A DNA stretch of 64,000 bases from Climacium dendroides (Eukaryota > Streptophyta > Bryopsida > Hypnales > Climaciaceae): contig OX467090.1 of NCBI GenBank assembly GCA_950106755.1, forward strand, positions 1,054,001-1,118,000, written 5' to 3'. Below the pieces are notes generated by a model. The model was not told the DNA's origin, made no database searches, and was given only the letters and a program-made list of their open reading frames with translations. Position numbers and translations under genes: made by a program. Positions 6,178-61,959 of the stretch are shown piece by piece; positions within the stretch are counted from its first letter, which is position 1, and every line of letters begins with the position of its first letter.

Positions 6178-6224
6178 GACTGTTTGAGTATTGAGTACTC
6201 ACTTGCAATTTTAGAATGGAAATT

Positions 6225-10170: not shown

Positions 10171-10242
10171 GATTACACCAGAGGGGTTTTGAATCGATCA
10201 TTTACACACGGTTGAAGAGAAGAATCAAGGCATCAAGTAGCT

Positions 10243-14475: not shown

Positions 14476-14734
14476 GGTTCAAGTCATTTGCAAGCACTCC
14501 TGAGAAGCTGAACGCTAAGATTCCCAAGGGCTACGAGCTGCAAATTGAAAAATTTGTATCTGTTGCTTGGTAATGTATAGTTCAGTGGACAAGGGGGCTT
14601 GGTTTACAAGGCTTCATACACAAATTTTTTTTCGTACATGTGATTGGGTGCAGGAATGAACGTACTATGCGTTTGAAATCGAAGGCCGATATTTGAAGTT
14701 TCAAATTGGATCCGCAAGCTATTCATTTTTTAAA

Positions 14735-16732
14735 ATGAGTACAAATTCTCATCTTTGGTATACCATTCCATCCCCCGGCAAAGTGAAGTGTAAGGCATGT
14801 GGGCTGGAGTTCGTAAATCGGAAATGTCGCATGTTGAGCCACTTGGGATACGAAGGCAAAAATGGCAGGCGCGACTCAGGAATAAGCCTATGTCCACGAT
14901 TGACATCGGATGTCAAGTCTCTTTTCCTTCGTTGTGATGGGATGTTTCCATCCAAATCAATCATTGAAAATGTAGATGGTCGGAACGCACTGATGGTTCT
15001 AGGCAATACCTCAAACGGAAGGGAGTCGCCATGTTCAACACAAGAAGACTCGTGCACAGCACCGGAACAAGCAGCTCTTTCAGCTTCAAGGGTGATTCCT
15101 AGTGCCCAAACATCAAGTGACCAACGACCTACACCTTCTTCTGTAACTAGGCCTCAAAAACAAAGCCGATTAGCAGATGGATTTGAAGAAGCCGAAAGAC
15201 GGAAGTTGAATATGTTGTGGGCTAATGTCTTCTATTCAGCAAACATACCATTCGCGGTAGCTCGGACTGCAGCATTCAAAGAAGCCGTCATGAGAACGGC
15301 TGACTTCAAAAGGCCATATAGTCCTCCATCGTATCAAGCTCTACGAACTAAATTGCTAGACGAAGCAAAGGTAGATCTTGAGGTGAAGTTGCATAAGAGG
15401 ACCGAGGATAGTATCCGAAAGTTTGGTGCAACATTGTCTATTGACGGGTGATCCTCGGTTACGAATCGGCCATTAGTAAATGTCATGTTTGTATCTTCCG
15501 CAGGGGAGCAATTTCTGGGATCAGTGGATACAAGTGGACATGAAAAGAATGCAGAGTACTTGGCTTCTATTTTGGATGAATTCATACAGAAGGTGGGGCC
15601 TTAAAATGTGGTGCAAATAACAATGGACAATGCTCCTGTGAATCCCAGAGCGTGTAAGATTATAACCGACAAATATCCTCACATTTTTTTCCAAGGTTGT
15701 GTAGTTCACGCCTTAAATTTGTTGCTCAAAGATTGGAGAAAGGAAGCATGGGTGGAGACGGTAGTAATAGACGCCCGAGCGGTTCTTAAGTTCTTTAGAA
15801 AGCGACACATACCACTTGCAATATTCCGGAGTTACGAGAAAGAGTACAGCTTGTTAATGCCGGGGGAAACAAGATTCGCCTCCAATTACATGGCGCCTCA
15901 CTAATTGTTGAAGGTAAAGGGTGCTTTAAAACAGTGTGTAACAGACCCTCGTTGGCGAAAATATGCGAGGACATTGAGGAAGAAGAAGAATGGTGGCGAG
16001 GAGTCTACAAATGCGACAAAGATAATTAACGATGACCACTTTTGGAGGCGTTGCACCAATTTCGTTCAGTTGCTGGACCCCGTAGTACATGGCCTACGTG
16101 ATTTAGATGCAAAGATGCCATGCACAGGCAAGGTTTTGCATATCATGAGGAAAATACGGAAGCACGTGGCGGATTTGGAGAATTCGCCTTTTAAACTAAG
16201 TTCGAAACTTGCAAAGCCATTGAGGGCAGCATTCCAACAACGATGGGAAATGGTGGAGACCGATATTCAATATGCAGGAGTTCTTTTAAATCCCTACTTG
16301 CTTCACGACAAAGAACTAGCAGACGATGGTGAGGCGATTGACGCATGCAAGCGTGTCCTCATGCGAATTTGTAAGCGTGGAAAGTACGTTGACGTCGTGA
16401 AAGAATTCATGGCTTTTCGACATAAAGAACCGCCTTTTCACAATATGCTGGACCCAAGCGAGTCCAAATTATCGGCACATGCTTGGTGGGATTTTGAAGG
16501 TGTTTGTGGAAAGCTCATTGCTCCGATTGCAAGGAGAATTTTAGGGCAATCGGTCTCTTCCTCTTCATGCGAGCGAAATTGAAGTAGCTATTCCTTTATT
16601 CATAATAAGTCTCGAAATAAGTTGAAAACAAAGAGAGCCATGGATTTGGTGTATGTGTATACCAATTCCAGAGTCCTCGCTGCTTCAAAGGAGAACGATG
16701 AGAAGATGTGGTACCGCGATGTCGCACTGTAA
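14735..16732 (+). pseudogene. hAT transposase with BED-type zinc finger, inactivated
   Basis: I chose the ATG at 14735 because the BED-like motif (VKCKACGLEF ... MLSHLGY) follows directly. The rest fits a plant hAT transposase: a central catalytic region (SIDG ... TNRPLVNV, then ITMDNAPVNPRACK) and a C-terminal dimerisation region (HAWWDFEGVCGKL ... SSSSCERN). The reading frame is continuous for 666 codons without frameshifts but has four stops: TGA at 15449, TAA at 15602, TAA at 15902 and TGA at 16580. Two replace residues that are normally Trp in hAT proteins (after DG and after CERN). The normal-looking stop TAA at 16730 lies about 13 bp inside repeat R1. It would have driven excision and insertion of the surrounding element. 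Confidence 0.85.
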
Positions 16733-23965: not shown

Positions 23966-24022
23966 TGAAACCACTACACATTAATCATTCTAACGTTGAG
24001 GTCATTTATAGAGAAGGGTACT

Positions 24023-25219
24023 ATGCCTCGCAAAGGAATTCCGGTTCTTTCCGGTTCTTCGAAGAAAAGTTCGAAGGGGAAACCACAAGAACTAGATTGG
24101 GATGTTTACTTCGATGAATTCAATGTGGCAAAGGAGGGGTGGGAGTACGAGTCCGACAAAGTGTGGACTTGTACAATGTGCAAGAAATATGTGACCATGT
24201 TACACATAGCCAAACTGTGGCCAACAAATGACAGTTTGGAGAAGCAAGTGAGACGGTGGAAAGGCCCTATGAAGACGTGTACGAGTAGACACTTTGTAGA
24301 GAGATACGAAGAAATTTGGGCAGCTTCAAATCTAGGTCCCTCGAAGCCTACCATCATGAACTATTCTACCATGGCAATGGTTTGGGCGGAGATTGTATTC
24401 CAGAAAGACGTTGACTGGCGTACAGTTATAGGGATGAATAAAGAGACGAAGATGACGTGTCACTTAGCTGTGGTGTTCACTAACTGGCGTGGCAAAAGTG
24501 ATTGCATGCCTGCTTGGTCGAACCGAGGTCAATTTGGGTGCCCAAGTTGGCCTATGCGGGATGCAGAGGATAGTGATGCTGACGATGATGAAGAACCAGC
24601 TGAACAGTTGCCACCTCCACCTCCACCTCCGGAGAGGCACGAACGCCGAGAAGAACGCGAAGACATAGAATACGAGAATCAAATGCGGGAAGCATTGAGG
24701 AGGAGTGTCGAGGATCAAGGCCGACCTCGTGGATATCACACTTCACCTCGTCGTGAACGTGATGTACATGGCTCGCGACATGGAGGAAGTAGTTTACACT
24801 ATAGCAACAACCTTCGAGATGGTGGTCCAAACGTAGAAGGAGGCTATAGAACTACGACCTATACGGACTACGGTGGTCTTTCACATGGCGGCCCTCAATA
24901 TTACCCAGGAACAAGGGGACCTCATGGAAACACCAGTTATACAGACTATGGTGGTTCGGAACAAGGCGGCTCGCAAAATTATCCGGGAACAGGAGGACAT
25001 GATTTGTATGGGCTTCATGGAAGTTCTTACTACACTGGTTCAAGTCATGGAGGGACTGGAGGCTCACATGAATATGCTTCAGTTCCACCTCCAACTTTTG
25101 GAGGTCCTTATTACGAAAATTATGGACAAGGGCGACAATCAAGCGGATATGGGCCATATGGTGGCTCCGGTTCTACGCCTCAAAGTCAAAATCATGATAA
25201 TAGTTCTGATTCTGAATGA
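24023..25219 (+). CDS. Family X2 protein: Cys/His module plus Gly/Tyr repeat tail, intact
   Basis: Single open frame of 398 codons. I chose the ATG at 24023 (MPRKG) over an in-frame TTG at 23996 because it follows the TATA-like box by 58 bp and matches the start of the paralogue. Residues about 30-160 are related to the family X module: WTCTMCKKYVTMLHIAKLWP, then CTSRHF, NYSTMAMVWAEI and KDVDWRT. A C-x2-C ... C-x3-H pattern suggests a zinc-binding fold. Next come an acidic stretch, a run of seven prolines and a charged segment. The last 150 residues are Gly/Tyr/Ser-rich with repeated YTDYGG and YPGTxG units, a prion-like low-complexity composition. No catalytic domain is recognised. It may bind nucleic acid or condense. 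The paralogue at 34602 is a pseudogene. Confidence 0.75.
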   Translation: MPRKGIPVLSGSSKKSSKGKPQELDWDVYFDEFNVAKEGWEYESDKVWTCTMCKKYVTMLHIAKLWPTNDSLEKQVRRWKGPMKTCTSRHFVERYEEIWAASNLGPSKPTIMNYSTMAMVWAEIVFQKDVDWRTVIGMNKETKMTCHLAVVFTNWRGKSDCMPAWSNRGQFGCPSWPMRDAEDSDADDDEEPAEQLPPPPPPPERHERREEREDIEYENQMREALRRSVEDQGRPRGYHTSPRRERDVHGSRHGGSSLHYSNNLRDGGPNVEGGYRTTTYTDYGGLSHGGPQYYPGTRGPHGNTSYTDYGGSEQGGSQNYPGTGGHDLYGLHGSSYYTGSSHGGTGGSHEYASVPPPTFGGPYYENYGQGRQSSGYGPYGGSGSTPQSQNHDNSSDSE

Positions 25220-34410: not shown

Positions 34411-34601
34411 GGCGCGGACAACCCATTCCACATAGTTGTTTTCCTTGCAGAGTGGACTGATGCAGCGCCAATTGGTATCTGTGAGCCCCTTCCGACTTGG
34501 AGTGTGAGCAACTGTGAATGAATTAACTTCTTTTTTTATAATCTCTTCATCACCTTGTCATTTATACAAATTGTAAACTTCTCACTCAAACGTTACATTC
34601 G

Positions 34602-35728
34602 GTGCGGAAAAGAAGGGTTACCATAGCTCCAAAAGGATTTCCCAATCCTTTCAAGAAGAGTACAAAGGGAAAATCACAAGACATGGATTGGGACGCCTAC
34701 TTCAACGACTTTTGTGTGGCTGGAGAGGGATGGCAATACAAGCCCAAAACAGTATGGACTTGCACAACGTGTCGAGAGTATGTGAAAATGTTACACATTG
34801 CGAAACTCTGGCCAGTAGATAACACAGCTGTGTTAGAGAGACAAGTGAGACGGTGGGAAGGTCCCATGAACACTTGCAAGAGTGAACATTTCAAGCAGAG
34901 ATACGAGGAGATTTGGGCATCTTGCGGTCTAGGTGCTTCCAAACCAAATATCATGAACTATTCTACCATGGCAATGATTTGGGCGGAGATTGTACTCCAG
35001 AAAGACGTGGATTGGCGTACAGTGCCTGCAAAGGACAAGAAGACCAAATTGAACTGTGACAAAGCGGTGATAAACACCAATTGGGTTGGCCCAAGCGATT
35101 GCATGCCATAGTGGTCTAATCGTGGTCAATTTGGATTTCCTCCGGAACCATTGCTAGATGTAGTGGACAATGATGATGATAACGAAGAAGATTTGCCACC
35201 TCCACCTCCACTTCCACAAAGGCATGAATGTCGGAAGAGCGCGAAGACCTCAACTTCCAAAATCAATTGCAAGAGGCAACAAGAAATAGTATTTTGGATC
35301 AAGGTCACCCGCGTCAACAACGGTCACCACCTCATCATGATCGTGATGTGCATCGCCCGCAATATGGAGGAGGAAGTTCACGTTTTAGCAATGGCCCCCA
35401 CAATGACTTCCAAAACGTACAAGGAAGCCATGGAAGCACAAGGTACACGGACTACGGTAGGTCTCAATATGGTGGGTCGCAATTCTATCCAGGGACGGGA
35501 GGGCCGGACTCATATGGGCCTCGCGGAAGCTCATACTACACTAGCTCAAGTGAGCGAGGGACAAGAGGGTTCGAGGCAAATGCACCACTTCCTCCACCTC
35601 CACCATTTGGAGGTCCATACTTCTCTGATTACAGACAAGAAGGAGGGTCTGGCGGATATGGGCGATTTGGTGGCTTTGATTCCACGCCCCAAGGTCAAAA
35701 TGACGATAGTAGTTCGGATTTAGAATAG
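34602..35728 (+). pseudogene. Family X2 protein, second copy, inactivated
   Basis: It aligns throughout with the intact X2 gene at 24023: WTCTTCREYVKMLHIAKLWP, CKSEHF, NYSTMAMIWAEI, KDVDWRT, a Pro run, YTDYGRSQYGG and YPGTGG repeats and an acidic C-terminus. Three lesions are visible. The expected start is GTG at 34602 with no ATG in that position. A TAG at 35109 falls where the intact copy has Ala in a CMPAWSNRG context. A frameshift near 35235 moves the rest into the frame that ends at 35728. In the intact part the two proteins differ at many positions, so the duplication is not recent. The CxxC ... C-x3-H residues are conserved in both. Confidence 0.75.
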
Positions 35729-44927: not shown

Positions 44928-44996
44928 CAACGACGCTAGCATGCGAGCTTGGAGCGGCGAGCTTGTGAGCGGCGAGCGAGGAGCTCGTGAGCAGGG
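44928..44996 (+). repeat. Left terminal inverted repeat and GAGC-rich subterminal repeats
   Basis: The terminal 21-mer is followed by GGAGCGGCGAGCTTGTGAGC and related GAGC words up to GTGAGCAGG. The mirror image stands at the right end (61905-61959). Such arrays are usual transposase-binding sites. Confidence 0.8.
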
Positions 44997-45289
44997 AGCC
45001 TGAAAATTAATTATTTTTAAATTAAAAGTAAATTTTAAAAAAATAAAATTGGACTTAAAATTTATTTACTTTTTTTAGTAAATTATGAGTCCTATGACCG
45101 CTTGCCCTATTACCGTGCTTTTCACAAAGTTTTCATTTTCAAGGTAGTAATTTCTTTTATATGGCAAAATTAAAGAATATTACTTCTTTCATGTTTAACC
45201 AGTTCCCTTCAATGATTGCATTTGTGATGTCCATAAACTATAAAAATAATAATCCTACTACAATTGCTTTGCTTTTAGCTCAATACAGG

Positions 45290-45400
45290 GATTGCACCTT
45301 GGCATAATTAGAAGCCTCACGGGATTCGAACCCGGGCCACCTCATTCTAGTCTCATAGACCTCTCGCAATTTTGCTAATATACTCTCAACTTAATGGAGT
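45290..45400 (-). repeat. tRNA-derived SINE-like sequence or tRNA relic
   Basis: On the minus strand there is a box-B-like GGGTTCGAATCCCG (about 45326-45339) preceded by a box-A-like TTGAGAGTATATTAGC about 50 bp upstream. The acceptor stem and cloverleaf are not complete. It looks like a Pol III-derived retroposon rather than a working tRNA. Confidence 0.4.
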
Positions 45401-45621
45401 GACCACATCTTCACATAGAAGTTATTTAAATGGGTAACGGTTTCATCATCCCAAAGAAGAATTACACAGAAAATGAGAAGTACAAAATTTTATAACCATA
45501 CAACAACTACAAAGCAGACATTTCATAAAAAAAACACAAATGCCAATATTTTGCAATTCAATTGTTTAGAACTTCATATTCATAGTATATAATTCAAGTA
45601 CATAGAAAAAAATATTTGTGC

Positions 45622-48600
45622 CTATTCCGGAATAGTAATAATCCCCGCTCGAACTAAGAGAACCTTTAACTCGTTGAAACTATAGCTTGGTGCATGAATG
45701 AATTTGTCATCCTCCATGCTCATCTTGCAGAAGTATCGATACAAGTAGTACAAATGCTTGCAATTAACATATTGCTGACGTCCTCCAATGGCAGATACAA
45801 CCATACTTACAAAGTCTGGACATGTGCAGGAAGGGAACATACCCATTGTAATGCGATACACATTTTTTTTGTCATCTGCTCCTGTCTCCAATGATACAAT
45901 TGCACCTAGACCTGGTAATGGAAGCAAGGTCACTCCTATGATTTGGCCTTTGATATTCCTTGCACTTTCCCACTTGTTCCGTTGCTCTATTGTGGGGGCA
46001 TTTGCAAGTCTACGAATACTACGATTGTTCCTCACTGTTGGATACACATCTGCATTTGATGGCGGTGCATGATCATATAAAACAGTCTGAAAAACCTTCG
46101 ACATACTGAAAATTTTACGTGGTGATAAAGTTGGTCGCTCCTGCAGACAGAATCCCGCATGCTGCAGGAGCAAAGTCTCTTCCCGACTTAAATTGGTCCC
46201 ACTTAAAACAGGCCAAATGTCTGGCAAACTTGGCCAGTCAATGACCCACTTCCGCTTTGTACCTTTCACACAACGTTCAATGTCATCTGAACAAAACCAG
46301 AAGTCACTTATCACCTCTCTCCTGCTTCCGTAATCTTCTTTTCTTCCGCGATAAGTTGGAGCTGGTGTTCCCTTCCGTCCCTTCGAGATTTTTGCAGTGC
46401 ATTTCATATTTGACCCCCGCTGTTGAGCATAACATCTTGCATTCGATTTGTGGCTGATCCTTGCAATGTGCCACTTAGATGTATCACAGTCACTTTCAAA
46501 TGCAACTGTAACATGATTGAAGTCATTTGTCCCTTGTTCTTTTCCTTTGTCACTAGAAGACTCCACCCCAACCACAGATGACCTTGTACGAATACGAGGT
46601 TGCGAAAAATTAACCTTGTCCGGTCGATGTGAATCCCCTGCATCACCAATAGGTACGTCCAACTTCCTCTTTGTGCTTCCAAAGATTTCCTCTCCCTCCA
46701 AGTGTGGTACACGAATTCCAAAACCTTCACATCCAGGTAAGGTATTCAATGCCTGTGCCATCTTCTTAGGGTCTCCACTTCGTCTAGCAGCTCTCAACTT
46801 CAACTCACCTTTCGATGGGCCACATCCAGATGCATGCCCTTTTAAATAAGCTCGATAGTTAGTCATTTGCATCCACGCACGGATGCTGTCATCGCATGTA
46901 GCATCAAATAGATTGTTTCCTCGATTGCCAGACATTTGGAGCCACTTATTGTGAATTGTCTCCGACAAATTGCAAGAAGGCATATCCGCCATCTCTTCCA
47001 AATTCAAATCCTACATTGCATCACAAGCAGAGAAAAAAAAATTGCAGTCAATTCCATACATTACAATCTTCCGCAATAAAAAAAAGGACTATTACATCCA
47101 GTAATTTAATTTAGTTTAGGGTAGAATTTTGAAGACGACAAAATCCTTCATGCTATTCTTCATAAACGATTTCTCTATGCGCTTAACTACTAAAACACCA
47201 AGAAAAATATTAACAATTAATACCATTTCCTTTAATTCTATTCACCTCCCTTTATTTTAGATCATTTACGTATCCTATTTTATTACTAAAACGAAGACCA
47301 TGTCCTTGGGGTAGTCTTCTATATCTACTCTAATGTACATGATACAGAAATGTTGTACTCACCATTTGCATGAATCCCCCCCATTGCCGATATCGAAAAT
47401 GCCAAAATGCTAACCAGTGATCTAAGTGATGAAGCGCATCTTCAGTTGCTGCTCCAGATGATAACCACCATGACTTAATTGCTAGATATCGTGTCTCCGC
47501 TTCTTCCATTGTCTTCGAATCTTTGTATTGTTTACAAAGTTTTGTATGCTGATGTTGGAATTCCTCCTTGATGTATTTTTGAGTATGCTTCTGAAGTGAA
47601 GTGCTCCAATGCAGTAAGCATGTTCGCTCACGATTCTCCATTCTGTCACTAGCTGAACCATTTCCATAGACTATACGAACAGCATTCCAATTTGCCATAG
47701 CGCTATCTGCCATGAATCCCTTGAAGTTTGGGTGATGTACTCCGTTTCGTGACATGACGGCATTCAAACACTTCCAAAATTGCACTTGAATTTCAGTATC
47801 TTCAGATTGCATATCACAGACTGCAATGGTCATTACCTTCTTGTATTGTGCATCATAAACATGACATGCCATTGTTGTCCACTCCTTCACACGCTTCACA
47901 TGGTCAAACATCATCCAAGCATTCTCCAAATTCCCTCCAGGTTGCATGCGCTTCACCAAATCCACTCCACTTCCAGGACCTTCAGTAAGCATCTTGAAAA
48001 TGTAAACTTTCTCCTTTCCCTGTCCTGGAAATACGCTGTCGTGAATGAATTCAAACTTTGATTCCTTCTTCATGGTCATGATGTTATCAATTACACCTCC
48101 TCCATTGCTTGAGCGAAATGATGATATGACATTTCTAACATTCGGACTGCTTAAGAATTCAAAGCGATCCATCACTTCCTCCAACTCTTCTCCCTTCAAC
48201 ATTTTTTTTTCCCCTTGACCATCATGAAATAAATAGTTCGTCAAAAACTCTTTGCTTGCAGACAAAGCAATTGCTGAGTTAGTGGCCTTTGGTGTCTTAG
48301 CCACTTCATCTGCTAGAAGTCCACAAATTTTTTTTGCAGAATCCCTGTACATTCCTTTTGCAACAGGGTGAGTGTGGTCTCCAAAGTGAATTGCAGCTCT
48401 ACTCATATGTGGATTAGCACTATAGCAATAGTAAATCCGAGCATCACACACACTTAGGCATGATGGTGAAATCTTGCACACTTTGCAAACAAGCGTACAA
48501 TCTTTTGAAGTATTGTTTCCTACTTCAAAAGGAAATGTTGTGTAGCCACTCCATTCTGTCTCATTGCGTTTAGAAGTCCTCTTCACATAATCACAATCTG

Positions 48601-49522
48601 GATTCTCACAAGCAAGATGACCTGCACAATATGACTTACGGAACTTCAGATTGTCAGAGTTCTGAATGTTTGTAGTCACCAATTTGCACCAAGGATGTCC
48701 ATCGTATCGCTTATCCATTCCTTCCAAGTTCTTCGCTGCTGCTGAAGAGGACGACAGTCGACAAGGAGGCAATTCGAAAATGACATTTCCATTGAATATG
48801 GCTGGAAGAAATTGCACGCGGTGATGCTTCATACTGTTGAGGTCCATTGTGGATAACTCGTTCCTTGAACGATGCATAGATGCCAATCTCTTCAGGCATT
48901 CTATTATACTCAATCGACTGATTGCACTTGGATGCAACGGGGGACGTGACACAGAAGAACGCCCTGGACTACTGGATAGGGTGTTCTGCACCGAAAATGG
49001 ACTTCCGTTTTCATTTAGAGCAGCCTTGTTAGGAAGCAATGGCTCTAACACTTCTAACTGAAGAGATTCTCCTGATGAATCGCTAGACAACTCGATAACA
49101 GAATCTTCTTTCTCTAGTTTCACTGCACGAAGAACAGAACCATGTGGAACAGCTCTAGACACTTCTCGAGTCGAACTAGGAGATAATACATAATTAACAT
49201 ACGGCATATTGACAGTAGAAGTATCTGAATGCCGACTTGGGATTTCTGATGATGAAGATACCAAACACAAAGGAAGACCGTAAGCTCTATAGTTCCCCTT
49301 CGATAGATACCAACAATGACCACTTTCTTCTTCAGACTTCACCATAGGAATTGACTCTTGCACTTGTCCTGACAGTGACATCCTCTCTTCTTCAACATAA
49401 ATGGAAGATTCTACAAACTTGAAACGAACATGTAAGAGATGGCTCAATACTTTTGCTCGTCCTCCTTCATTAACCGGAAAAATAAGTGGAACTTCATATC
49501 CATCTACACGAATGGAAGCCAT
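45622..49522 (-). CDS. MULE-type transposase with SWIM zinc finger (two exons)
   Basis: Exon 1 is 49522-47363 and exon 2 is 47010-45622, about 1,182 residues with no internal stop. The intron has ATG/GTGAGT and TGTAG/GAT borders and phase 0. I chose the ATG at 49522 (MASIRVDG) over an upstream TTG. A Cys/His-rich DNA-binding-like region is at about 280-400 (CAGHLACENPDC ... CKVC ... HFGDHTHP). The DDE-type core at about 555-670 includes MMFDHVKRVKEW, AVCDMQSEDTE, GFMADSAMANWNAV and CLLHWSTSLQKH (C-x2-H after the second Asp, as in MULEs). The SWIM motif at about 1115-1140 is CTCPDF ... NCKHLYYLY. It would cut and join the ends of the 17-kb element in the nucleus. Lying inside those ends, it is likely autonomous. 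Catalytic residue assignment is by eye. Confidence 0.8.
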
Positions 49523-49531
49523 GATATACAA

Positions 49532-51076
49532 ACCATATGCAAAAACTACACAAGATGTAAGAGTGTAATCCTTATAGGTCAGTGCTGAACCACTTCTTTT
49601 TCTACGGTATAATAACGTACATGGAATTTGAATTCCACCTCAAATTAGGAGGCGTAGGAATGGACGACCCTCCTTTCTTAGTTACTATTATTGAATCCAA
49701 ATTTTTAGGTAGCCATTTTAAAGCACTTATTCTGCACCGCCTTCCTATAATACATTCACAGCATCTCAGAGGCTATGTTCGGCATCATAATTATGTGTCC
49801 ACATCACCTATGCAATAGAAAAATGAAGCACCTACTTTTGAGCTGCTTCAATTAGAATAATATTAAACGCAAACATGTAGCTATGTCAGTTAGTTCCAAA
49901 TTGTGTGTAAATTAAGATTTCAGAATATGGTTTAGGAAAGTTCACTCATGGTTATTTTTGATATTTCTCTAGTATGAGATGGCATTTTCAAATGGACAAT
50001 TTCAGCGCCGACGTTATCAATTAATATCACAATGCAGCAAAATTACCTCACATTCAGTGGTTGGATGAAAATTCAAAAATCAGGTGAAAACATAGTATAA
50101 AAAAAAGGGCGGGGTTCACAATATCAATTGCACCACCCAGCCTTAAGTCTCCTTGTCAAAGCGCATAGCTCTCCCTCTTTCTTATTTCAATCCTTTCTTT
50201 ATTCCGTGCAATTGTATAGATATTGCTTTCACTTGCATTTTGAGTTTCAATGACTGCGACTATGTTTTCAGTTTAAAGATTCTTCAGCGCTTGTTTTCAA
50301 TTCTTAGAAGATAGTACAAACTAGTACTCATTCTCACGTTGATCTCATTTGGGCATTAGAAGTCATCTTTCAATTCTACAGCTTCGGAGTTCATTCACCG
50401 GAAGAAGCCACGAACTACCGTGACTGTCGTCAACTTAAACTGGAACATTTTTTTTGATTAGGAGCGTTCATCAATCATCCATCCTTGAAGTCTAAGTTCT
50501 TAAAGTACTTTTATATTAGGACTCCTGTTCTTCTGCAACGTCTTAGGACTTGGTCATTCTTTTCTTCATGTGGAGAATAGATATTTCATTAAAATGATGC
50601 CATTTTAACGCCATTTTTCTACTCTTTTTCTACAAATGGTGTACATTTAGAACACATGCTCTAAACTGATGTAGGACTGGTGTACATTTTAGAACACATG
50701 CTTTAAACCTGCAAGTGCCAAGTTTGCGGAATAATGCCGTTTTAACGAAATATCCGTTAAGGGTTGTGCTAAATCATCAATTCCTCATTATTTTTTCGAT
50801 TGATCGCGTCTCTTCAACACTCACAGAATGTCTAGCTTCATTCACACGTGGCAAGGTGAGGGGGTTGGTAGTTTAGTACTTTTTGGAACCCTGACAGTTG
50901 TTGTCCATACCGGTACATCTGTGCTGGGCCGGTTCAAGGGTAGTCAATTACCAAACCCACAGTCCAAGTTTTCCCCATAACGCTGTTTAACTTTCTTAAA
51001 TGATTTCACGTCAGCAAGCCATTTCGCGTGCCGGACACTTCTAAAATGGCTTTTGTTGCTTTCACGATATGTAGAG
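49532..51076. other. Central promoter region of the 17-kb element (transposase side)
   Basis: Non-coding sequence upstream of the leftward transposase. It probably contains that gene's promoter and 5' UTR. No other gene is seen. Confidence 0.4.
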
Positions 51077-51079
51077 TAA

Positions 51080-52343
51080 GAGCGCGTTTCCATTGACCGC
51101 CTGGACCTCCAGGTTCGGGAGGTCCAGGCGGTTTCCATTGGGGGGAAGGGGAAGCTGGACCTCCAATCAGACGTCCAGGTCCCCCTCCAGCCTCCAGGCC
51201 TGTTGAAGCTGAAAAACAGACCTGGAGGGCCTGGACCCACTGGACCCCCCCAAACTTGGAATACGACAGCCCATGTCGTGCTACAGGGTCCTGCAAAAAT
51301 TCTCTGAAAAGTTACTGCGGAAGCCTTGTTTGCCATATGTAAATCCAGAGTGGTTAGTAATTCTGTGTTCCCATTTCCAAAGCCCTGAGCAGCTTGGGCA
51401 TGGGGGTATGGCTCCCTTGCTAGGCTGGGAAGAAATGCTGAAATTTTATTTTATAATTTTTATTGATTCTTTACACTGACTGCTGAAGTGATTGAGTTGA
51501 GTTCATTATGCTGAGGGTATTCATGTTGATATCACAGAATTTTTAATTATTAAATTTTCATCATAATTTTCAGTATTTATATTAATAATAAAATAATAAG
51601 ACTAATATTACTTAACAATATGAAATATGAAATAGTAATACTATTAAATAATTAATAATGTTTATATTAATGTTAGAATAATTATAAATATTAATTAACA
51701 ATGAATAGTATGTAAATGAATGCTGAATTTTTTTTCATAAATAATATAATATGTGAATTTTCAATGGGTAAAATCAGTTCAAAGGAAAAAAAACATTACA
51801 AGAATAAAATGGACACTAATGGATTTTAATTAACTCTTAAAGGACCAAGCCCTTTTATTTCCTTCCTAGAAAACAATAATTAAAAGCAATAATTGAAAGC
51901 AATAATTAGTAATACGAATTAATAATAATAATAAAACAATAATGAATAAAATTAATTAATAACAGTAATTAACATAATTAATTAATAACAATAACTAATA
52001 TAATTAATTTCTAACAGGAACTAACATAATTAATTAAGAACAATAATTAACATAATTAATTAATAACAGTTATTAACCTAACTAATTAATAACAGAAACT
52101 AATATAATTGATTAATAACAATAATTAATAGAATTGATATGGCTTAAGTTCAGTATATACCTTTTCAATTTACTTCGGAGTAAGCTGAGTTAACAACCGT
52201 TTTCTAATTGCCTTGCTATGGCTCCTCCAGGACCTGGAGGTCCAGCTTCCAATGGAAAGCTGGACCTCCCTTCCGGCCATCCGACTCCCATCCAGTCCGC
52301 CCTCCAGGAGCTGGACGTCCACGAGGGTAATGGAAACAGCCTC
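51080..52343. mobile_element. PIF/Harbinger-type MITE, 1,264 bp
   Basis: The left end GAGCGCGTTTCCATT and the inverted right end GAGGCTGTTTCCATT form 15-bp repeats with three mismatches. The 3-bp duplication TAA flanks it (51077-51079 and 52344-52346). TAA duplications and a GAGGCTGTTT-type end are typical of PIF/Harbinger. Each end continues into palindromic GGACCTCCAGG/GGAGGTCC words (about 51105-51250 and 52228-52322), while the middle is a very AT-rich AATTAATAACA repeat. No transposase is encoded. It is inserted between the two genes of the 17-kb element. Confidence 0.8.
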
Positions 52344-52895
52344 TAAATTGAAGACTACCATTACAACAAGTCTCCAACAACCAACTGAACTGAAACCTGT
52401 GAGCGATGCTATGGTTTCTGAGCGATGCTATGGTTTCATCAGAGGAGTTTTGAGACGGTCATCAAACAAATATTATCCTTTTTGTGCTTGCCATGAACAT
52501 TACTGTAGTGATTTACAGAAGAGTGGTCCACATGTTCTGTGCAAAGAGACAGTAGAATACGAGTGAATTAGCACTCATAGACTAGTATGTCAATAAACTC
52601 AACGTCTCACAGAATCAAGGAAAACTGAGATAATCTCGGCAACAACTCCAGTGCAGAAGTTGTAATTTCGAAATCTAAGTTGCCGTAACAGTCATCCCGA
52701 GTTTCAGTGCTGAACTCTGCGGCAATTGGGCGACCTGCATGACCTGTAACAATTTTTTGGTGCATCCATTTATTCGATCTGTTATCGAAGACCCTTTTTC
52801 TCCCACTACGTGATGGATTTGGACCAGCCTTTTCCCATTTCCAGATGATGTCACAAAGACCTAAAACCTCACGATAGCACATTGAATCCAGAAAA

Positions 52896-52987
52896 GGGCC
52901 GCCGAGGACGCACCTGACACCGCAAGTTGTGCGGTGCTTTATCAGCCGCTAGACCCTATCTCCGGGTAAGCCGATTCCAGGGTAGGC
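52896..52987 (-). rRNA. 25S rRNA fragment (copy 1)
   Basis: On the minus strand it reads CCTGGAATCGGCTTACCCGG, then AGATAGGGTCTAGCGGCTGA, then AAAGCACCGCAC and GGCGGCCC. This is a conserved stretch of the eukaryotic large-subunit rRNA as I recall it. It is only 92 bp and carries transitions relative to copy 2. It is a relic, not a functional gene. Confidence 0.7.
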
Positions 52988-53253
52988 AGGTTGTAAAAAA
53001 AAAAAGCGCAGCTCGGTCGATGATCAATCGCCCATTAGTTACTGACTTTTGCACGGGTTGGCATGCATGCATGAGGCTTCGGAATTGCTCGATCACCTTG
53101 TTGACTTGTTGATGTAACTTGCACAGTAAAGTATATGTAGAATAAATTGCTCTAACTATACGTGAGGCAACTTGTGAATGCCTTTCGGCGCATGTTATGT
53201 AAGCTTGTGGAACGTCAATGGTCTTCCAACTTGGCCAGGTGTTCAGAAACTGC

Positions 53254-53360
53254 TCCTGCAGATTTTCAAGGGCCGCCGAGGACACACTTGACACCGCAAG
53301 TCGTGCGGTGCTTTATCAGCCGCTAGACCCTATCTCCGGGTAAGCCGATTCCAGGGTAGG
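53254..53360 (-). rRNA. 25S rRNA fragment (copy 2)
   Basis: Same stretch as copy 1, extended by the conserved GGCCCTTGAAAATCTG motif. Both copies are followed on the plus strand by CARGTTGT and an A run (A11), so they descend from one duplicated or retroposed piece. They lie about 374 bp apart in direct orientation. Confidence 0.7.
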
Positions 53361-53787
53361 CAAGTTGTAAAAAAAAAAAGGGCGCAATTTGGCACCGGAA
53401 CCCGGCTTTCCGTTCATCTCGCATGGCCAGTTGTGTTTACCACAAATGGTCGACTTGGAGTGCTCATTCTGTCCCGGGATTCTCTTGCACAGCGCTCCAA
53501 TTTAAACTCACAGCGCTCCGAACCGAATTCAGATTCAATGAACCACAATTGCTGAGAATTAACTAAACGGCGTTGAAATTAACTAAACGGCGTTGAAACT
53601 TTCGTTACCAATGAAAGATCATCCACCAGGTCACCGTCACTTTCCCCGTCACAGCACCCTTCCCTTGTGCGGCCCTCTCTATGGACACTCAGTCTTTTGT
53701 TTTTTAAGAATTCTTTTTGCACCTGAGAAAGAGACGGCTGCAGCTCTGTTGCGGGAATTTCAGGAAACCGTACAGCTTGGCTCCACG

Positions 53788-56700
53788 ATGAGGCACACTC
53801 GTTCTCGCGCGAGATTGGACTCCAGCTCTCCTGCATCGCAAGAGCAGGCGTCTGTGCATACGGTAAGTTCAGCTCTACATTTTTTTCTGTTTCCAGAACA
53901 GTAACTAACGGTGCATCTCCTTGTGCATTCCGATTCCCCACTGAAATGTTGGGGTCCTCTAGCGACTTCGGGGAAGACAGTCGGATCCGACGCTTCCTCT
54001 ACTAGTCGCTCCTGGACCCCCAAATTTGAGTGCGGTCATCGCCGCAGTTGTCCTTTTTATCTTCTTGTTGTTGCTGTACCGATCAAAGATACTTCTTTCT
54101 TGAAATTCATTGTGGTTTTAGGAGTATGCACAAACGGGGAGTGAAACTAATGTATATTATTGAACCCGGACTATGCTTCAATGAATCCCGATTCCCAAAA
54201 GCAGTAAGAAGTGTGAACTGATCTTGAATGAGATCAGCAACAACCTTCAGATCCGAGGTGTGCGAGTTCTTTTGAGAATGTGGAACGATTTCAAATTTCA
54301 GCTGAACTACGTATGTCCAGTGGAAAGACAGAGTATTGAATTCTCAAGCCACCTCATTTTGGGGGGTCCTCGACAGTCCAGTGAACGGACAGTCGGATCC
54401 GACGGTCTCCTTCCTGGTGGTAACGGGACCCCCTTCTTTTGATATAATTCTTGGATTCTCTTAGAAAGGTTATAATTTTTCTAAGTTTCTACACTAGTCG
54501 ACTTTTGAAGGCTCCAAGTTGCTGACTTGCTGTGAAGGTAGAATGCATAGGTGGCGAAAGCTGGCAGACCAAAGTGGGATTTAGGGTGTTTGGGTCGAAA
54601 TCCCCCGCTGTCATATGCCATAGCTGGCGTGGGTTTATAAGGTTCCAAATTCTGGAAATATGTGGGTCGTGGTGACCATAGGGAATGTACTATCGGATCC
54701 AATGGTCTATTTGCCGTTGCTGCCTAGACCTCCGAACTTCTAATGTTTGAGTTTTAATATTTTTGTTTTTATTTGAACTTTGACTCATTTGTATTAATTG
54801 CGCAGCGTTTGATTGTAGTTTTGAAGTCTTCTTAAAGTTTCAGGAGTTGACCTTGACCTTCATTTTTGATATGTGACGAGTCTTTTAATTTTTTTTATAA
54901 TTTGCATTTAATATGTAAGAGTGCCTTTTTGTTTATGGTTACTTCAATTGAAAAGGCCAAACAGAAGTTGTTGTTTATTCGCATTATGTCCTTAAGAATG
55001 CTGACGACAGAAACTACGGCAACTATAATCCCATGACGGGGGGTGTAGGACTTTCTTCATCATGGACCATCAGATGTGACTGTAAAAAATCATGTTAGCT
55101 ATAGACCCCTCCGTTTGACAATAAAATTTTGTACTCTTTCTGAATGTGTGGTATTATAGTAATTTCTAAAATTTAAGTACATTTGGGCTCTTTTCTAGTA
55201 GGTTCAGTTGTAGATGAAGTGAATTTGTACATTCAATAATGTGTATGGTTTGATAAGTTGGTACTATTCAACAAAGAAAAAATGATGTTAGTGTTCATGA
55301 CTTTCTCTTTAGTTTTATTAAATCTTGTGATTGTCATTTGGGAAAGAATATAGTGATATAAAATTAGTGACGTTTTATGTCGTCTAATTGGATGTGCAGG
55401 GAGGACATCACAGGAGTACATCGACAGGAAGAGACCGTCCTCCAAATCCCCCGTTGCTATCAAGGGCTGGACCTTCTCACATTTCGACACCATCACCAAC
55501 GGCCACGGAAGTCTCCAGCAGTTCGGAAGAAGATGAACGAAGAGAAGAAGAAATGGTAAGTTTTTCCAAATCTGAATAAGTGCACATTATTTGGCAGATG
55601 TATACAAGAAACGTGCCCTCAATCATGTGAGTGATCCAAGGATTGTGCATTATTCTATGTTAGTGTTGTTTTACACTAGATTTGGACGAATCCTTAAAAT
55701 AAGGATGCATTTAGTCATAGGACAGCAGAGCACTCTCTACAGAGTTCAGAGGAAAAACAACACTAATAGGCAGAGTTATATTACTGACAATGCACCTATA
55801 ATTCATGAAACTTTTGATTGTACATGGAGCACAATTACACATAGTGAAGATGTTGTGTTCATTGATCTTTGTTCAGTCTCAAATTGACATGTAACAAACT
55901 TCTATGTTGTATCTTGTATTGGTTTATTAATTTATTTGGTTATTTTGGTGTGTTTTTGAAATTGTTACTTTAGAATCATTTTCAATTATTAATTTTGTAC
56001 AAAGCTCGTCTGTGATGGTCTTCATTGTAGACATATTAGTTACCTATGTAGTTTGAAATTGACAGTGAGTTCATAGTATTCTGTTGGTCATTGTCTTTGT
56101 TGGAATCCTTTCTAATTCTTTCATTTTCATATTTGAACTTTCAGATGCAAGACGATACAACTAACCTTTGGGTAGAGGAAACCATTCCCGAGACTCAGGC
56201 AATCGAAGCTTCAGAGCAACCAGACATTGAACAAGAAACTGAAGATGAAGATGAAGGTGAACATGAGTACGGGGTAGGTGATGCAAAGAAGGACGTTGTA
56301 GAAGATGAGTCTAAAGACCTTCTAGAGGATGACCTTCGGCAGTATCACAAGGTAGATGCTGTGAAGTCTATTGCAGCTTTGCGGATGAAGCCGGACCACC
56401 TATTTCGGTTGCAAATACCATTGTGTAGAATGGTAGCCATGCCTATGGTAAGGCCCACTCTTGCAAGTGACCTATTGTTACTAGAGCATGAATTTGTGAA
56501 TGGCTATAGAGATGGAGCCGCAGTGTTTTATGTGACAACAACAAATGAGGGAGGGGAGAGTTTGGAGTTCATGGAAGAGGAGATGGAGGCTTGGGGTCCT
56601 ATTTGGAAAGAGAAAAATGCCATTTTTACCTCGCACTTAGAGTCAGTGCCCGAGCTCAGGTTTATGAAAAACTTGAAGTTCTACGTTTGCGATGGAAACC

Positions 56701-59700
56701 ATCGGCTAATTTCTTGGATGACCCACATCAAGAGGCGTCACTTCGGTGACGCAGATTGGCACTGTGCTGTGGATTCCATTGTCCTAAACACAAAGGGGAA
56801 GACGGAGTTGGTCATGCATGTAATGCATGACATAAATAAGTAAGTCTTTTTTTCCTTTTTAATATGGCATTGTCTATTATCTTTATTTGCATATTTTTTT
56901 TTATGATTGTATTTCAAGTTTTTAATTAACCCATTTTATCAAATGAATTGTAGGTCGACGGAGGATTCACATGTGAAGACTAATCTTGTCCACACATTAT
57001 ACAGAGTCCAAAAGTATGGACTTCTTCCCATTGACAAGTTCAAGGAAATGTTGAGGCCATCTGAACTCAAACTATGTGATGCAGTGAAGATGAAGAGGAC
57101 TTGGTATACTATGCCTGTACAGGTCTTCACTTGTTTTCTTTTCCGGGTAAGAGATGTCTTCAACAATTATGAATTACTGGATGCATGTTTTGTTGTCATG
57201 TGGTTGGATTTGAGCTTTCAAGCTGTTTGTAATTTAATTTATCATGTAATTTTTGCAGCAAGAGATAGCTCAAGCTGCAGATGGAGCAGTACGAAAGTAC
57301 CATGAAGTCACTCCTAAGGAAGAGAACATGCCAGAAGGGGTGGCACATGCAATGAGAGCTGGAGCACGGGAGAAGATAGGGAAATTGAATATAAAGATGA
57401 TGAAACTTGTTACAGTGGCCAATCCAGCTCTCAAGCCAGAGTTCCTACAAGAGGTTTGTGTCTTATGCATATGCAACTACAATTTGACTCCTATTGTTGA
57501 AAATGACATTTGAGGCTAACAAAAAATTTGCAAATTGTAGGTGGAAAGGCATTGGAGTGCTAATGAGATTCCAGAGATGACTCTGGAGAAGCTACAAATG
57601 GTTGCAACTTGTAACACTACACCAGCACATAAAATAAAGTTCTTGAAGTGGTGGAATTCATCTGGGCCATCACGTGATGCTAGGCGTTTTCCGCCGAGGC
57701 CAGTGTCTGAGATATTACTTGCACCATTTTTAAACAGATGTGTTTGGTATGCTGGGGTGAGAGCTTGTTTCCTTTATAAGTGCATGCATTAGTGACTAGG
57801 ACTTTAGGAAAAAAATAATAACATTTTGCCCTGCTTATACATACGGTAGGATAAAACAGTTTTCCTATTTTTTAAGAACATGCTCAATATTGGAACGTTG
57901 AAAGAAGTGTATACAGTTTTATACATGTATTGTAATCTTTGAACTTTTTACTTACTACAAAATTGAAGTGTAGGTGCATGGAGTAATTGCATTGCATTGT
58001 ATATTTTGGACAAAGCTTACAAGACCTTTGTCTCTTAGATTGAAGATGCAGCCGTGAAGGAATTCGACAGTATTGTGAAGGGTGACAATATTGCTGTGAA
58101 CATGGACGTACCAGAGCAACCAGATACCTTGGTGGACTACCTAGAAGGTTGGAGAAAGAAGATTTGGGATCAAGGGTTCTTACCACACTTGAGAGGAGCA
58201 AATTATTTCAAGAAGAATGACAACTTTGAGGCCTATGAAGGGTCCAAGCAAGCGGTGCGAAGAGTTCTTTTTCGGTAAGTGTTAAGTAATCTTAAGTGTT
58301 CATTGTATTTATTTTGTACTTCATACAATGAAGTGAAGAATATGTCATTGTATGTCAGAAATGTAGATGTGCAAGAATACTTATAAGGAGTTGGGGACTA
58401 TGGGCACAATTGAAGAGGTTTATAGTGTGAGTTGAAAAGTTGTATGACATGATTCAAAGTTTGTGGACAGAGTTCTTGCTCCCTTTGGTCTTGTTTGTTG
58501 ATGAATTTTTTTTTTTTAAATTGCAAATAAATTAATGAAGTGTATTTGAAGCATTTCTTAGTATAAATGAAATCTTGCAATCTGTTTAAACAATATTGTG
58601 ATGTGTTTTGATTTTTCTTTTTTGCATTGTACAATGGAACTACAGATACTTCAAGTTTGAGTTGCTGGGCAAAGGTGCAATTGAGAAGAAAGACTTCCCT
58701 ACATTCCTATCGAATTTCTTAGACCGTACTTCCCCGAGTTGCATGTACACTTCCATGCAACTGAGGACGTATACAACGGCCCATCTTGGTGGTGGTGGAT
58801 GGTACCTTGACTGCCCAATTTCATACACACATCCATCGGAATCACAGCTCCGGAACTCATTGGAGGGTATTGGTGCCATTGATTTGGAAGTGGATGAGTT
58901 CGTAGGGATGACCGATGTCCAGAAACGGAGGGCCATTTCGAAGAGGGAGTCTAGTGACAGGAAGAAGGCAGCAAAGCTTAAAGTTGCATTGGAGAACAAA
59001 CAGAAGAAGGAGTTAGAGCGTTTGGCGAAGTTGGCAGAGAAGGAAAAGGAGAAGGAAAAAGAGAAGGAAGAAAAGGCTAAGGCGAAAGGGATGAAGAAAG
59101 ATGAAGGTGGACCCGTTATTCCTACATCATCAACGGTGGACCAGAGCTCTGAGATGGTAGGAAGAAGTCAAAGCGGAATGAAGAGGAAGGCAGTCCTACC
59201 AGACTTCAATGAAGATATGGTCACCCAGGGGACTCAGCTGGTTCACATTTCAGACGACGAAGAGGTATCGTCGGAGGAGTTAATCCTGAATGTCTCCATC
59301 GAAGACATCATGGAAAATGAACTAAAACCTGGGCCGAATTGCTACACTGAGGTTATTGATTTCCTAGAAAAGGTAAGGATTTCTTGTTTTTGTTCTTTAC
59401 AAGATCATTTAGAAGTCCAGAATGAGAATTCCATCTTAGAAACTACTAATTGGTACCAAATTTCCTATTGTAGGTGGTAGTAGAGAAAGACAGGGAATAC
59501 GATGGGAAGGTAAACAAATTTCCCGGATTTGACTTGATGGTCTTTGACTGCCAAGAGAATTTGCCGGTGCCGGGGTGTTCATTGACAACAGATATTATAC
59601 CGGCGTGGAACTCAGACCCCCATTACAATATGATATTCCAAGCATTTGCATTTGCAGAGAAGCATTTGCAAGACCATGGTGCAATTGTGGTTTTCCATTC

Positions 59701-60872
59701 GTGGAGTGTGGATGCAAAGAGCACCATTGCGGGATTATGTACAGAATTTCAAAAAATAGTTGTGAAGAAGGAGTGGCTATGTACGAATCGAGTGCATCTA
59801 ATATCGGCCGTGGACAAAAAGAGCACGGTAATATTTTCCAAATCCCTTACAGTTTTTGGAACATTATCGTGGTTGAGTTTTAATTCATTTTTTTAATGTG
59901 AGTTGTGTTTTTGTACTAGTAGACCTTGAAGTTTGGTATCACCATTCTCGTGAAAGACCTTGGTCCTAGAGGGAAATCAAAGTTCTCCTTCAAGCGATCA
60001 AAGGCAATGGAGCAAGCCAAAGTGGACCTTAAACAAGATGACGTGCTTATGAACTATACGACAATAGATTCCCTATCGGTGAATAAAATCGATGGAAAAC
60101 CGTGGCGTGGGGCTCGAGAAAAGGATGCTCGACTATTGGCATTTCTCATTGACGGTACCACTGACGAGGGAGACATTGTTTTTGATTGCACAGCGTCAAC
60201 GGGTAAGTATGAAATTCAAATGAAGTTTGTATATAGTCTTCAAATGCAACACCAACCCTAAACACTTATTGAATGAAATTTCTTTTGGTTTTCACAGGTG
60301 CCTCCATCAAGGCCTGTCGCGGAACAGGGCGCCATATTCTAGCGTTGGAGAAAGACGAGAACATTTTCAAATATCTCCTTGAACCTATGAAGAGGACTAT
60401 TACTCCTATAAGTCCTGTTGCCCCAATGGGAATGAGCGAAGCTGCTGACGTTCAAGTGTCACAAGATCCAGATTCAATGACAATTGTACCTCGGAAGTTC
60501 CCTCGTCGTGATAGACCTAGTAAGTAAGTTTTCTTTAGTCCTCAAATTCTAATGTTTCTTAAGTACATGTAAGATGTCATGATCTAATTGTGAATCATTT
60601 GCATGTGCAGCAGTCCGAGATTGATGGCAGATGATGCAGTTAAGAGAAGGCGAAGGCTTCTCCTTAGTCCTGAAAAGTCATTTGACTTACCAGTTTATGC
60701 ATCGCAGTTAGCATCAGCATTTGCAGAGTTTGGGACTACAGAACCCAAACGCCGAAAGCCTTTGTACGCGCTAAATGTCTTGCAGTTTATAGATGGATCG
60801 GCCTCAGAGGGTGAAAAAACTTCAGATTCTTCTAGTGACAAGGATTCTGCAGTAGAATCGACTGCCACTTAG
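53788..60872 (+). CDS. ParB-like / DNA methyltransferase-like protein, 12 exons, intact
   Basis: Exons: 53788-53862, 55400-55555, 56145-56839, 56954-57122 (or 57146), 57259-57453, 57541-57756, 58039-58274, 58646-59372, 59474-59827, 59923-60202, 60298-60523, 60611-60872. All introns are GT-AG, phases join, and the product is 1,196 (or 1,204) residues without a stop. After an acidic N-terminus, FYVCDGNHRLISW (residues about 256-268) resembles the ParB/Srx nucleotide-binding loop. A KEKEKEKE coiled-coil linker follows. The C-terminal third has the order of beta-class N4/N6 DNA methyltransferases: FDLMVFDCQEN (motif IV position), then GKPWRGAREKDARLLAFLI, GDIVFDCTASTG (motif I) and GRHILALEKDENIF. 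The (D/N/S)PP(Y/W) tetrapeptide is absent, so it may bind SAM or DNA without methylating. Shares the 17-kb element with the transposase, divergently transcribed. Exon borders were chosen by eye. Confidence 0.75.
53949..54023. repeat. Foldback repeat 1 in intron 1 (CGGATCCG centre)
   Basis: About 75 bp. The arms TTGGGGTCCTCTAGCGAC and (inverted) TTGGGGGTCCAGGAGCGAC flank CAGTCGGATCCGACG. It is a miniature palindromic element. Confidence 0.6.
54357..54436. repeat. Foldback repeat 2 in intron 1
   Basis: Arms GGGGGGTCC and inverted GGGGGTCCC surround the same ACAGTCGGATCCGACGG centre. It is related to foldback 1, about 400 bp downstream. Confidence 0.6.
54656..54735. repeat. Foldback repeat 3 in intron 1 (degenerate)
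   Basis: Centre ACTATCGGATCCAATGGTC is related to the two others. The arms are eroded. Confidence 0.4.
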
Positions 60873-61904
60873 ACTCATAAGATTGACGTATCTTATGAGT
60901 TTAAACAATATGTGTTGATTTTGATTATGATTGGATTTGTGTGTTTTATGGTTATATGTGTGTATATCACCGTTTTTGCTCTACAATATACAGTCGTGCA
61001 TTCAAATGAATTCTAACCTTAGTGTCTTACATTTGACACTTTTGAATGACAATACAAGGGAATACATAGTAGTTCATCATTTCAAGTGTCTCAATGAAAG
61101 AGACACAGCCTATAAGAAAAATAAACATTCACAATGACCATGGTTTGAAAAGATTTCAAAACTACGGAATATTGGGTTTAAAAAAACATTCCAACTACAT
61201 GAATGTGCTTAATTTAAACATTTTGTAGCCATATAGGGTGTCCAATAACATTACAAGTAATCGAAAGTTTTTGTAGTGTATTTAAAAAAAATTGCAATTG
61301 CACACGACTTATTCTCCAAAATATAAGGTGTCAAAAAAACACAAGTACTGTAGATTTTGAATGATCAAGAATAGGATGTCATATTAAAATTGAAACTATA
61401 AATGTGGGCTTCCAAAAAAAGATGTCGAAGAACATTACAACTATCCAGACTCCCTACAGCTTATATACTAGGGTGTCTACCAAAATAGAAACTATACCAA
61501 AACTTTCAAAGAAAAATATAGATTTAAAATAAATGGCAACTATTCCAACACTTCCATTAAAAAATATAAAACCCTCAACAAAAAAACAATTGCACAGAAA
61601 TGATTTTTGTTGAAAAAGACAGTGTGAAATACAATACAAGTACACCAAAGCTTCAGTGACATAAATTGTGGTTTAACCAGAAATAAAGCTTGCAGAAGAC
61701 TGATTACCATCACTACATAGATAGCAAACAAATCTTTATATATCCCTAAACCTACACCCTAAACCTAAACCTACACCATTATTAGGGTTACAACAAATAC
61801 CAAAAAATATACAACCACGACCCTCTAAAGATTAAAGAACCACGGTCATAGGTGATTCAATCATTTTATGAATCCATGGTCATAGGTAATTCATGTTTAT
61901 TTGT
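60873..61904. other. 3' region of the cargo gene
   Basis: Contains the 3' UTR of the ParB/methyltransferase-like gene and AT-rich sequence. A telomere-like CCCTAAACCTACACC run occurs at about 61745-61777. No further gene is seen. Confidence 0.45.
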
Positions 61905-61959
61905 TCCTGCTCACACGCTCACATGCTCACGCTCACACGCTCGCACGCTAGCAACCCTG
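61905..61959 (-). repeat. Right terminal inverted repeat and GAGC-rich subterminal repeats
   Basis: GCTCACACGCTCACATGCTC-type repeats end in GCTAGCAACCCTG at 61959, directly followed by the duplication ACCTTGAAA. Confidence 0.8.

Follow-up and report, generated by a model that had tools for sequence, protein, structure and literature searches.

The window analysed here, a 64,000-bp stretch of the Climacium dendroides genome (contig OX467090.1; G000:C39:1054001-1118000 in our numbering), contains a 17,032-bp DNA transposon of the Mutator-like element (MULE) type at positions 44928-61959. Its transposase gene is accompanied by a second gene, here called the cargo, which on the basis of a fold model and a profile match is predicted to encode a ParB-CTPase-fold domain joined to a beta-class N6/N4-methyltransferase domain with an altered catalytic motif. 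Both genes travel as one unit with a common pair of ends and co-occur in three diverged subfamilies of the searched genome (412,615,100 bases in 123 contigs).

The element is bounded by two perfect copies of ACCTTGAAA, directly outside both ends, and a 9-mer match between random flank positions arose by chance in 26 of 200,000 draws. An earlier note on this DNA had described this 9-bp duplication, inverted 21-bp ends and GAGC subterminal arrays. The duplication is confirmed; the ends are inverted but imperfect, with 16 identical positions out of 21 by visual count, and they lead into GAGC arrays that can be aligned with each other and hold 8 (left) and 5 (right) GAGC per 75 bp, against no more than 4 per strand in interior 75-bp windows. 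The genes are arranged head to head, the transposase reading leftward and the cargo rightward, with a nested miniature inverted-repeat transposable element (MITE) in the intergenic stretch.

The genome contains 123 occurrences of the left-end 14-mer GCTAGCATGCGAGC and 72 of the right-end 21-bp pattern CAGGGTTGCTAGCRTGCGAGC, against none for the reversed-pattern control of either. From 100 listed left sites (90 after removal of right ends) and the 72 right sites, 21 left-right pairs 15.9-32.5 kb apart were obtained. Family-A cargo, the type found in the window, lies inside 12 of these pairs (11, including the window, by cargo search and 1 by reading its sequence), which are all the pairs whose interior was examined. 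The cargo search scored the best 33 of 3488 candidate regions and the transposase search the best 38 of 2266, the window's own transposase standing outside the latter table, so that all copy counts are lower bounds. Cargo loci number at least 17 at 88-99% amino acid identity (family A) and at least 16 at ~62-66% (subfamily 2), counted from exon 3 and exon 8 matches, and an exact right end lies no more than 9 kb away from 14 of the 17 family-A and 9 of the 16 subfamily-2 loci listed. Both genes are present in at least eight family-A copies (the window, C1:1.15, C35:33.1, C3:37.9, C3:3.0, C34:7.9, C41:21.1 and C39:5.8 Mb).

Ten further family-A copies were read at both ends, and nine carry a perfect duplication of their own, all different (9 bp in two, 10 bp in seven); the boundary of the copy at C3:3.03 Mb was moved by eye owing to a substitution in its end. 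Over 2.6-2.9 kb, copies in C38, C39, C40 and C3 share 99.76-99.93% identity with the window and have therefore moved recently; the most diverged copies are 95-98% identical. The two-gene mobile system proposed in the earlier note is well supported by the distinct duplications of cargo copies, by the presence of both genes in eight family-A copies and in one copy of each of two other subfamilies, and by the recent movement of the near-identical copies. Further copies with the same ends, both genes and new duplications, as that note had called for, were found, the duplications being of 9 or 10 bp, and within this genome neither of the outcomes that it had set against its proposal, the lack of any second copy or a cargo that is a stable single-copy gene outside these ends, was observed. 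A single-copy accident is ruled out by the repeated ends and by the copies with their own duplications.

The two other subfamilies differ from family A in both genes. The subfamily-B element at C38:1.32-1.34 Mb has a transposase with 74% (exon 1) and 80% (exon 2) amino acid identity, a cargo with 52-74% depending on the exon, and its own 10-bp duplication, GACGTTCATG. The subfamily-2 element at C38:27.80 Mb retains the left end, with transposase identities of 68 and 75% and cargo identities of ~45-88% by exon; its right end was not found within the 1.3 kb fetched. Between subfamilies, synonymous differences in the cargo are saturated (pS, their observed proportion, 0.77-0.80), with nonsynonymous divergence (dN) of 0.28-0.30, and comparison of the transposase with two 76% copies (L053 and L054) gave a ratio of dN to synonymous divergence (dS) of 0.08-0.10. 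The pairing of transposase and cargo is old, as seen from their joint presence in three diverged subfamilies, and synonymous change is in strong excess.

Both genes were modelled computationally. The transposase gene consists of two exons on the minus strand and encodes 1182 amino acids (Table 1). The AlphaFold2 (AF2) model gives it a tentatively ubiquitin-like N-terminus, a WRKY-GCM-like zinc region at residues ~245-390 and an RNase-H-like DDE core at residues ~476-720, the IS256-like core characteristic of the MULE superfamily; D540 and D606 are candidate catalytic residues and a CxxH lies at 635-638, all assigned by eye. The earlier note had described an uninterrupted transposase/SWIM gene. 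The frame indeed has no internal stop, and a SWIM-type CxC...CxH motif can be read by eye in exon 2 (~45754-45831), but a Pfam search of the transposase at E<=1 gave no match and hence no SWIM match. No MULE Pfam model was found among the 13 members of A2, which include the window transposase, and a scan of viral contigs with the transposase gave no relative.

The cargo gene (53788-60872, plus strand) has 12 exons and no internal stop, as the earlier note had described; its introns are of the GT-AG type, and it encodes 1196 amino acids. The model is ambiguous at the start codon, at exon 4 (alternative donor) and at exon 12 (alternative acceptor).

Table 1. Positions of the element's ends, genes and nested insertion in the window
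Feature	Positions	Strand	Remarks
Left target-site duplication, ACCTTGAAA	44919..44927		adjoins left end
Left terminal inverted repeat, 21 bp	44928..44948	+	16/21 versus right end
Left GAGC subterminal array	44928..45002	+	8 GAGC per 75 bp
Transposase exon 2	45622..47010	-	residues 721-1182; alignable with P0004
Transposase exon 1	47363..49522	-	residues 1-720; AF2 model and conservation
Nested PIF/Harbinger-like MITE (presumed)	51080..52343		TAA duplications; ends GAGCGCGTTTCCATT / GAGGCTGTTTCCATT; between both genes
Cargo exon 1	53788..53862	+	start codon uncertain
Cargo exon 2	55400..55555	+
Cargo exon 3	56145..56839	+	predicted ParB-CTPase-fold domain; GxxR box (DGNHR) 56691-56705
Cargo exon 4	56954..57122	+	present also in two other subfamilies
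Cargo exon 5	57259..57453	+
Cargo exon 6	57541..57756	+
Cargo exon 7	58039..58274	+
Cargo exon 8	58646..59372	+	contains Lys/Glu-rich stretch
Cargo exon 9	59474..59827	+	methyltransferase-like domain; motif IV position DCQENLPVP 59546-59572
Cargo exon 10	59923..60202	+	motif X region, start of motif I (DCTASTG from 60184)
Cargo exon 11	60298..60523	+	remainder of motif I, then strand (LEKD)
Cargo exon 12	60611..60872	+	includes stop
Right GAGC subterminal array	61885..61959	-	5 GAGC per 75 bp, read inward
Right terminal inverted repeat, 21 bp	61939..61959	-	pattern CAGGGTTGCTAGCRTGCGAGC
Right target-site duplication, ACCTTGAAA	61960..61968		adjoins right end

A fold model was needed for the ParB part of the cargo because even the best hit of a sequence search against the PDB, at E 0.99, was not convincing. 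In the model, which left out the middle region (exons 4-8), this part adopts a ParB/Srx fold. The GxxR P-motif (Box II) is present as DGNHR, and across 71 aligned sequences the N is invariant and the D, G, H and R are nearly so. At E<=1 the cargo matches N6_N4_Mtase in Pfam, with four further matches that are weak. For the window cargo the PF01555 match (E 0.0011) is under the curated cut-off; PF01555 was found in four of the five core cargo members, the best at 7e-8, and the fifth member is a ParB piece only. Active beta-class N6/N4 DNA methyltransferases carry the catalytic motif [DNS]PP[YFW]. At this position of the cargo, subfamilies A, 2 and B have DCQE, P0002 and P0003 have DAPE, and P0001 has DTPF; in motif I, STG or ATG stands in place of GSG. 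No variation is seen in the alignment at E1052 or K1008, which we take to be the ribose-side acid and the lysine of motif X, respectively. The only named relatives of the cargo found among 7994 candidates scored are three proteins of Ceratodon purpureus. Scans of viral and genome contigs with the cargo gave 5 and 3 loci, respectively, in viral, bacterial or archaeal records, all matching residues 978-1104 only.

We tentatively favour the view that these copies constitute an autonomous MULE-type family in which the second gene is under selection, is probably obligate and encodes a ParB-fold/methyltransferase-like reader with an anti-silencing role. The ParB-like part would bind nucleotide and close on element DNA as a nucleotide switch, and the methyltransferase-like part would act as a DNA reader and not as a writer. 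The resulting complex, perhaps loaded near the terminal GAGC arrays, would keep the element expressible; such a VANC-like, anti-silencing function is our first choice. Either protein, transposase or cargo, could bind at the GAGC arrays. As to origin, it is conceivable, though more doubtful, that a MULE lineage of plants acquired a ParB-CTPase/N6-N4-methyltransferase fusion of phage type, abolished its catalytic activity and made of it a clamp, switched by nucleotide, that would read or coat the DNA of the element and keep host silencing at bay.

Several observations weigh against the favoured view. Foldseek by itself gave the ParB match an E of no better than 0.12, VIA re-ranks the list that Foldseek produced, and sequence search of the cargo gave no ParB match. 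The Ceratodon relative P0001 is near canonical in its catalytic motif, and a protein that has lost DPPY need not be inactive. The GAGC arrays may be no more than sites for the transposase. The copy at C34:7.9 Mb, one of the ten family-A copies read, has no target-site duplication, the subfamily-B copy is broken by a stop in cargo exon 9, and the subfamily-2 copy by a frame break in the transposase. Within family A, some cargo dN/dS values reach 0.4-0.66 and several copies have stops or a frameshift; these stops, frameshifts and higher ratios are as expected for a family with decaying copies.

Help to the transposase is the strongest of the other explanations, although we consider it unlikely: the cargo would be a transposition co-factor that binds the ends and has no role in silencing, a second element gene in the manner of MURB of MuDR. 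The head-to-head pairing in three subfamilies and the GAGC arrays at both ends agree with this, and the predicted ParB fold would suit a DNA-loading switch, but the methyltransferase-like domain would be superfluous. We regard as more improbable that the cargo is a catalytically active methyltransferase placing N6-methyladenine or N4-methylcytosine on element DNA. The earlier note had suggested that the cargo may mark, read or block methylation of element DNA; of these roles, marking is disfavoured by the replacement of the catalytic motif, seen in subfamilies A, 2 and B as well as in P0002 and P0003. The change in motif I also argues against it, whereas the beta-class domain found by profile, the invariant E1052 and K1008 in their presumed roles and the DTPF of P0001 argue for it. 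Retrotransposon-borne DNA methyltransferases (DNMTs) are, according to the available part of one report, able to methylate CG (PMC5890265). Capture of the cargo as a passenger with no role for the element, in the style of a Pack-MULE, would accord with the frequent capture of host gene fragments noted in excerpts of a MULE survey (PMC6446971). It is very improbable and was rejected because three diverged subfamilies have the cargo, between which dS is saturated and dN is ~0.29; the 12 exons and the constant place and orientation also speak against it. That the 17-kb unit is an accident of two unrelated elements lying side by side has almost no probability left, since, even though nested insertions such as the MITE do occur inside it, the many copies of the same span with their own duplications refute it.

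In several respects the family resembles MuDR and other MULEs. The perfect 9- or 10-bp duplications in the window copy, in nine of ten further family-A copies and in one subfamily-B copy fall within the 8-11 bp expected of MULEs, and the terminal inverted repeats, a DDE core nearest to that of ISCth4, the putative SWIM-type motif and the second gene (compare mudrA and mudrB) are further likenesses. It differs in that the window transposase has no Pfam match at E<=1 and in that the second gene, a predicted ParB-methyltransferase fusion, is unlike the extra genes named in the accessible text of the MULE survey (PMC6446971). From Pack-MULEs it differs in having a transposase and a 12-exon cargo common to three subfamilies. 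The VANC proteins of Arabidopsis VANDAL MULEs bind to motifs in tandem and bring about demethylation, as described in the available portion of PMC10398659. VANDALs and the present family have in common an additional protein and short motifs that recur in tandem in the non-coding DNA, but the cargo, as judged from its Pfam matches, appears to differ from VANC in domain make-up.

The same two domain types as in the cargo occur in phages. A 2025 survey of the ParB-CTPase fold, as far as its text was available, states that phages have fusions to N6_N4 methyltransferases more often, that prophages are enriched for them, and that sulfiredoxin is the commonest eukaryotic representative (PMC12704722); the word stems 'transpos' and 'plant' do not occur in that text. 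The cargo is distinguished from these fusions by its place in a eukaryotic DNA transposon, its long middle region, its 12 exons and the loss of DPPY. TET/JBP genes are carried by fungal DNA transposons, KDZ and others, according to the part of PMC12730594 available, and are likewise DNA-modification-type second genes, although the enzyme there is a dioxygenase and the transposases belong to other families. The link to KDZ and TET drawn in the earlier note was rejected, as the families that the cargo matches in Pfam at E<=1 include no TET/JBP. A methyltransferase-type domain within a mobile element is also encoded by DIRS1-like retrotransposons, in which its function is unknown (PMC3266345), and by the DNMT-carrying retrotransposons (PMC5890265); these are retrotransposons, however, and a ParB fold is not mentioned in the available parts of either source.

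Only a handful of transposon families are known to bring along means of their own to set or counter epigenetic marks, those named in the partial texts being VANC, TET/JBP, retrotransposon DNMTs and SET. If our preferred reading is correct, the cargo would add a different protein class, a ParB-type nucleoside triphosphate switch joined to a pseudo-methyltransferase. If the more doubtful phage-type origin applies as well, the family would represent a self-protection system of phage parts inside a eukaryotic transposon. Among the matches listed in the open-licence literature there was no report of a ParB-methyltransferase gene in a eukaryotic transposon; as far as literature searches, short of a full survey, can tell, this would be the first known case of ParB-fold DNA machinery serving one. 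The near-identical copies with fresh duplications, together with subfamilies that differ in both genes and in end-array layout, make it testable whether accessory proteins act on their own family only.

Relations among the subfamilies are mosaic (L043, L077/L078). Exons 4 and 6-8 of the window cargo are nearer to subfamily 2, and exons 9-12 are nearer to subfamily B, as is the window transposase, a pattern suggestive of recombination across subfamilies or of an altered evolutionary rate in the methyltransferase half. A second cargo last-exon piece (61%) lies just beyond the right end of the subfamily-B element (L078 1893-2069; G000:C38:1335892-1336068), so that the element seems to have inserted into or next to a further copy of the cargo. 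The PIF/Harbinger-like label of the nested MITE is presumed from its ends and target-site duplications. Upstream of the cargo, a 116-nt stretch is present twice in direct orientation, at 52894-53009 and 53268-53383; the two copies, 374 bp apart, have 96% identity and a terminal A run each, and possibly represent a piece resembling a short interspersed nuclear element or a duplicated promoter piece. Elsewhere in the window, four related reading frames, at 5389-6198 (-), 10216-10806 (+), 23969-25219 (+) and 34542-35111 (+), have a 'CxxYVxMxHIxKLWP' motif in common and form a local repeat family. At 14660-16582 (+) lie fragments of a gene for a hAT-like transposase, so judged by eye from its translation, which begins BED-like and ends like a hAT dimerisation region. 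Mirror-image transposase pairs with identical scores and spacing at G000:C29:1574922-1585567 and G000:C100:1961-12606, and a mirror-image cargo pair at G000:C37:27989756-28009323, look as if they came from inverted duplications or assembly palindromes.
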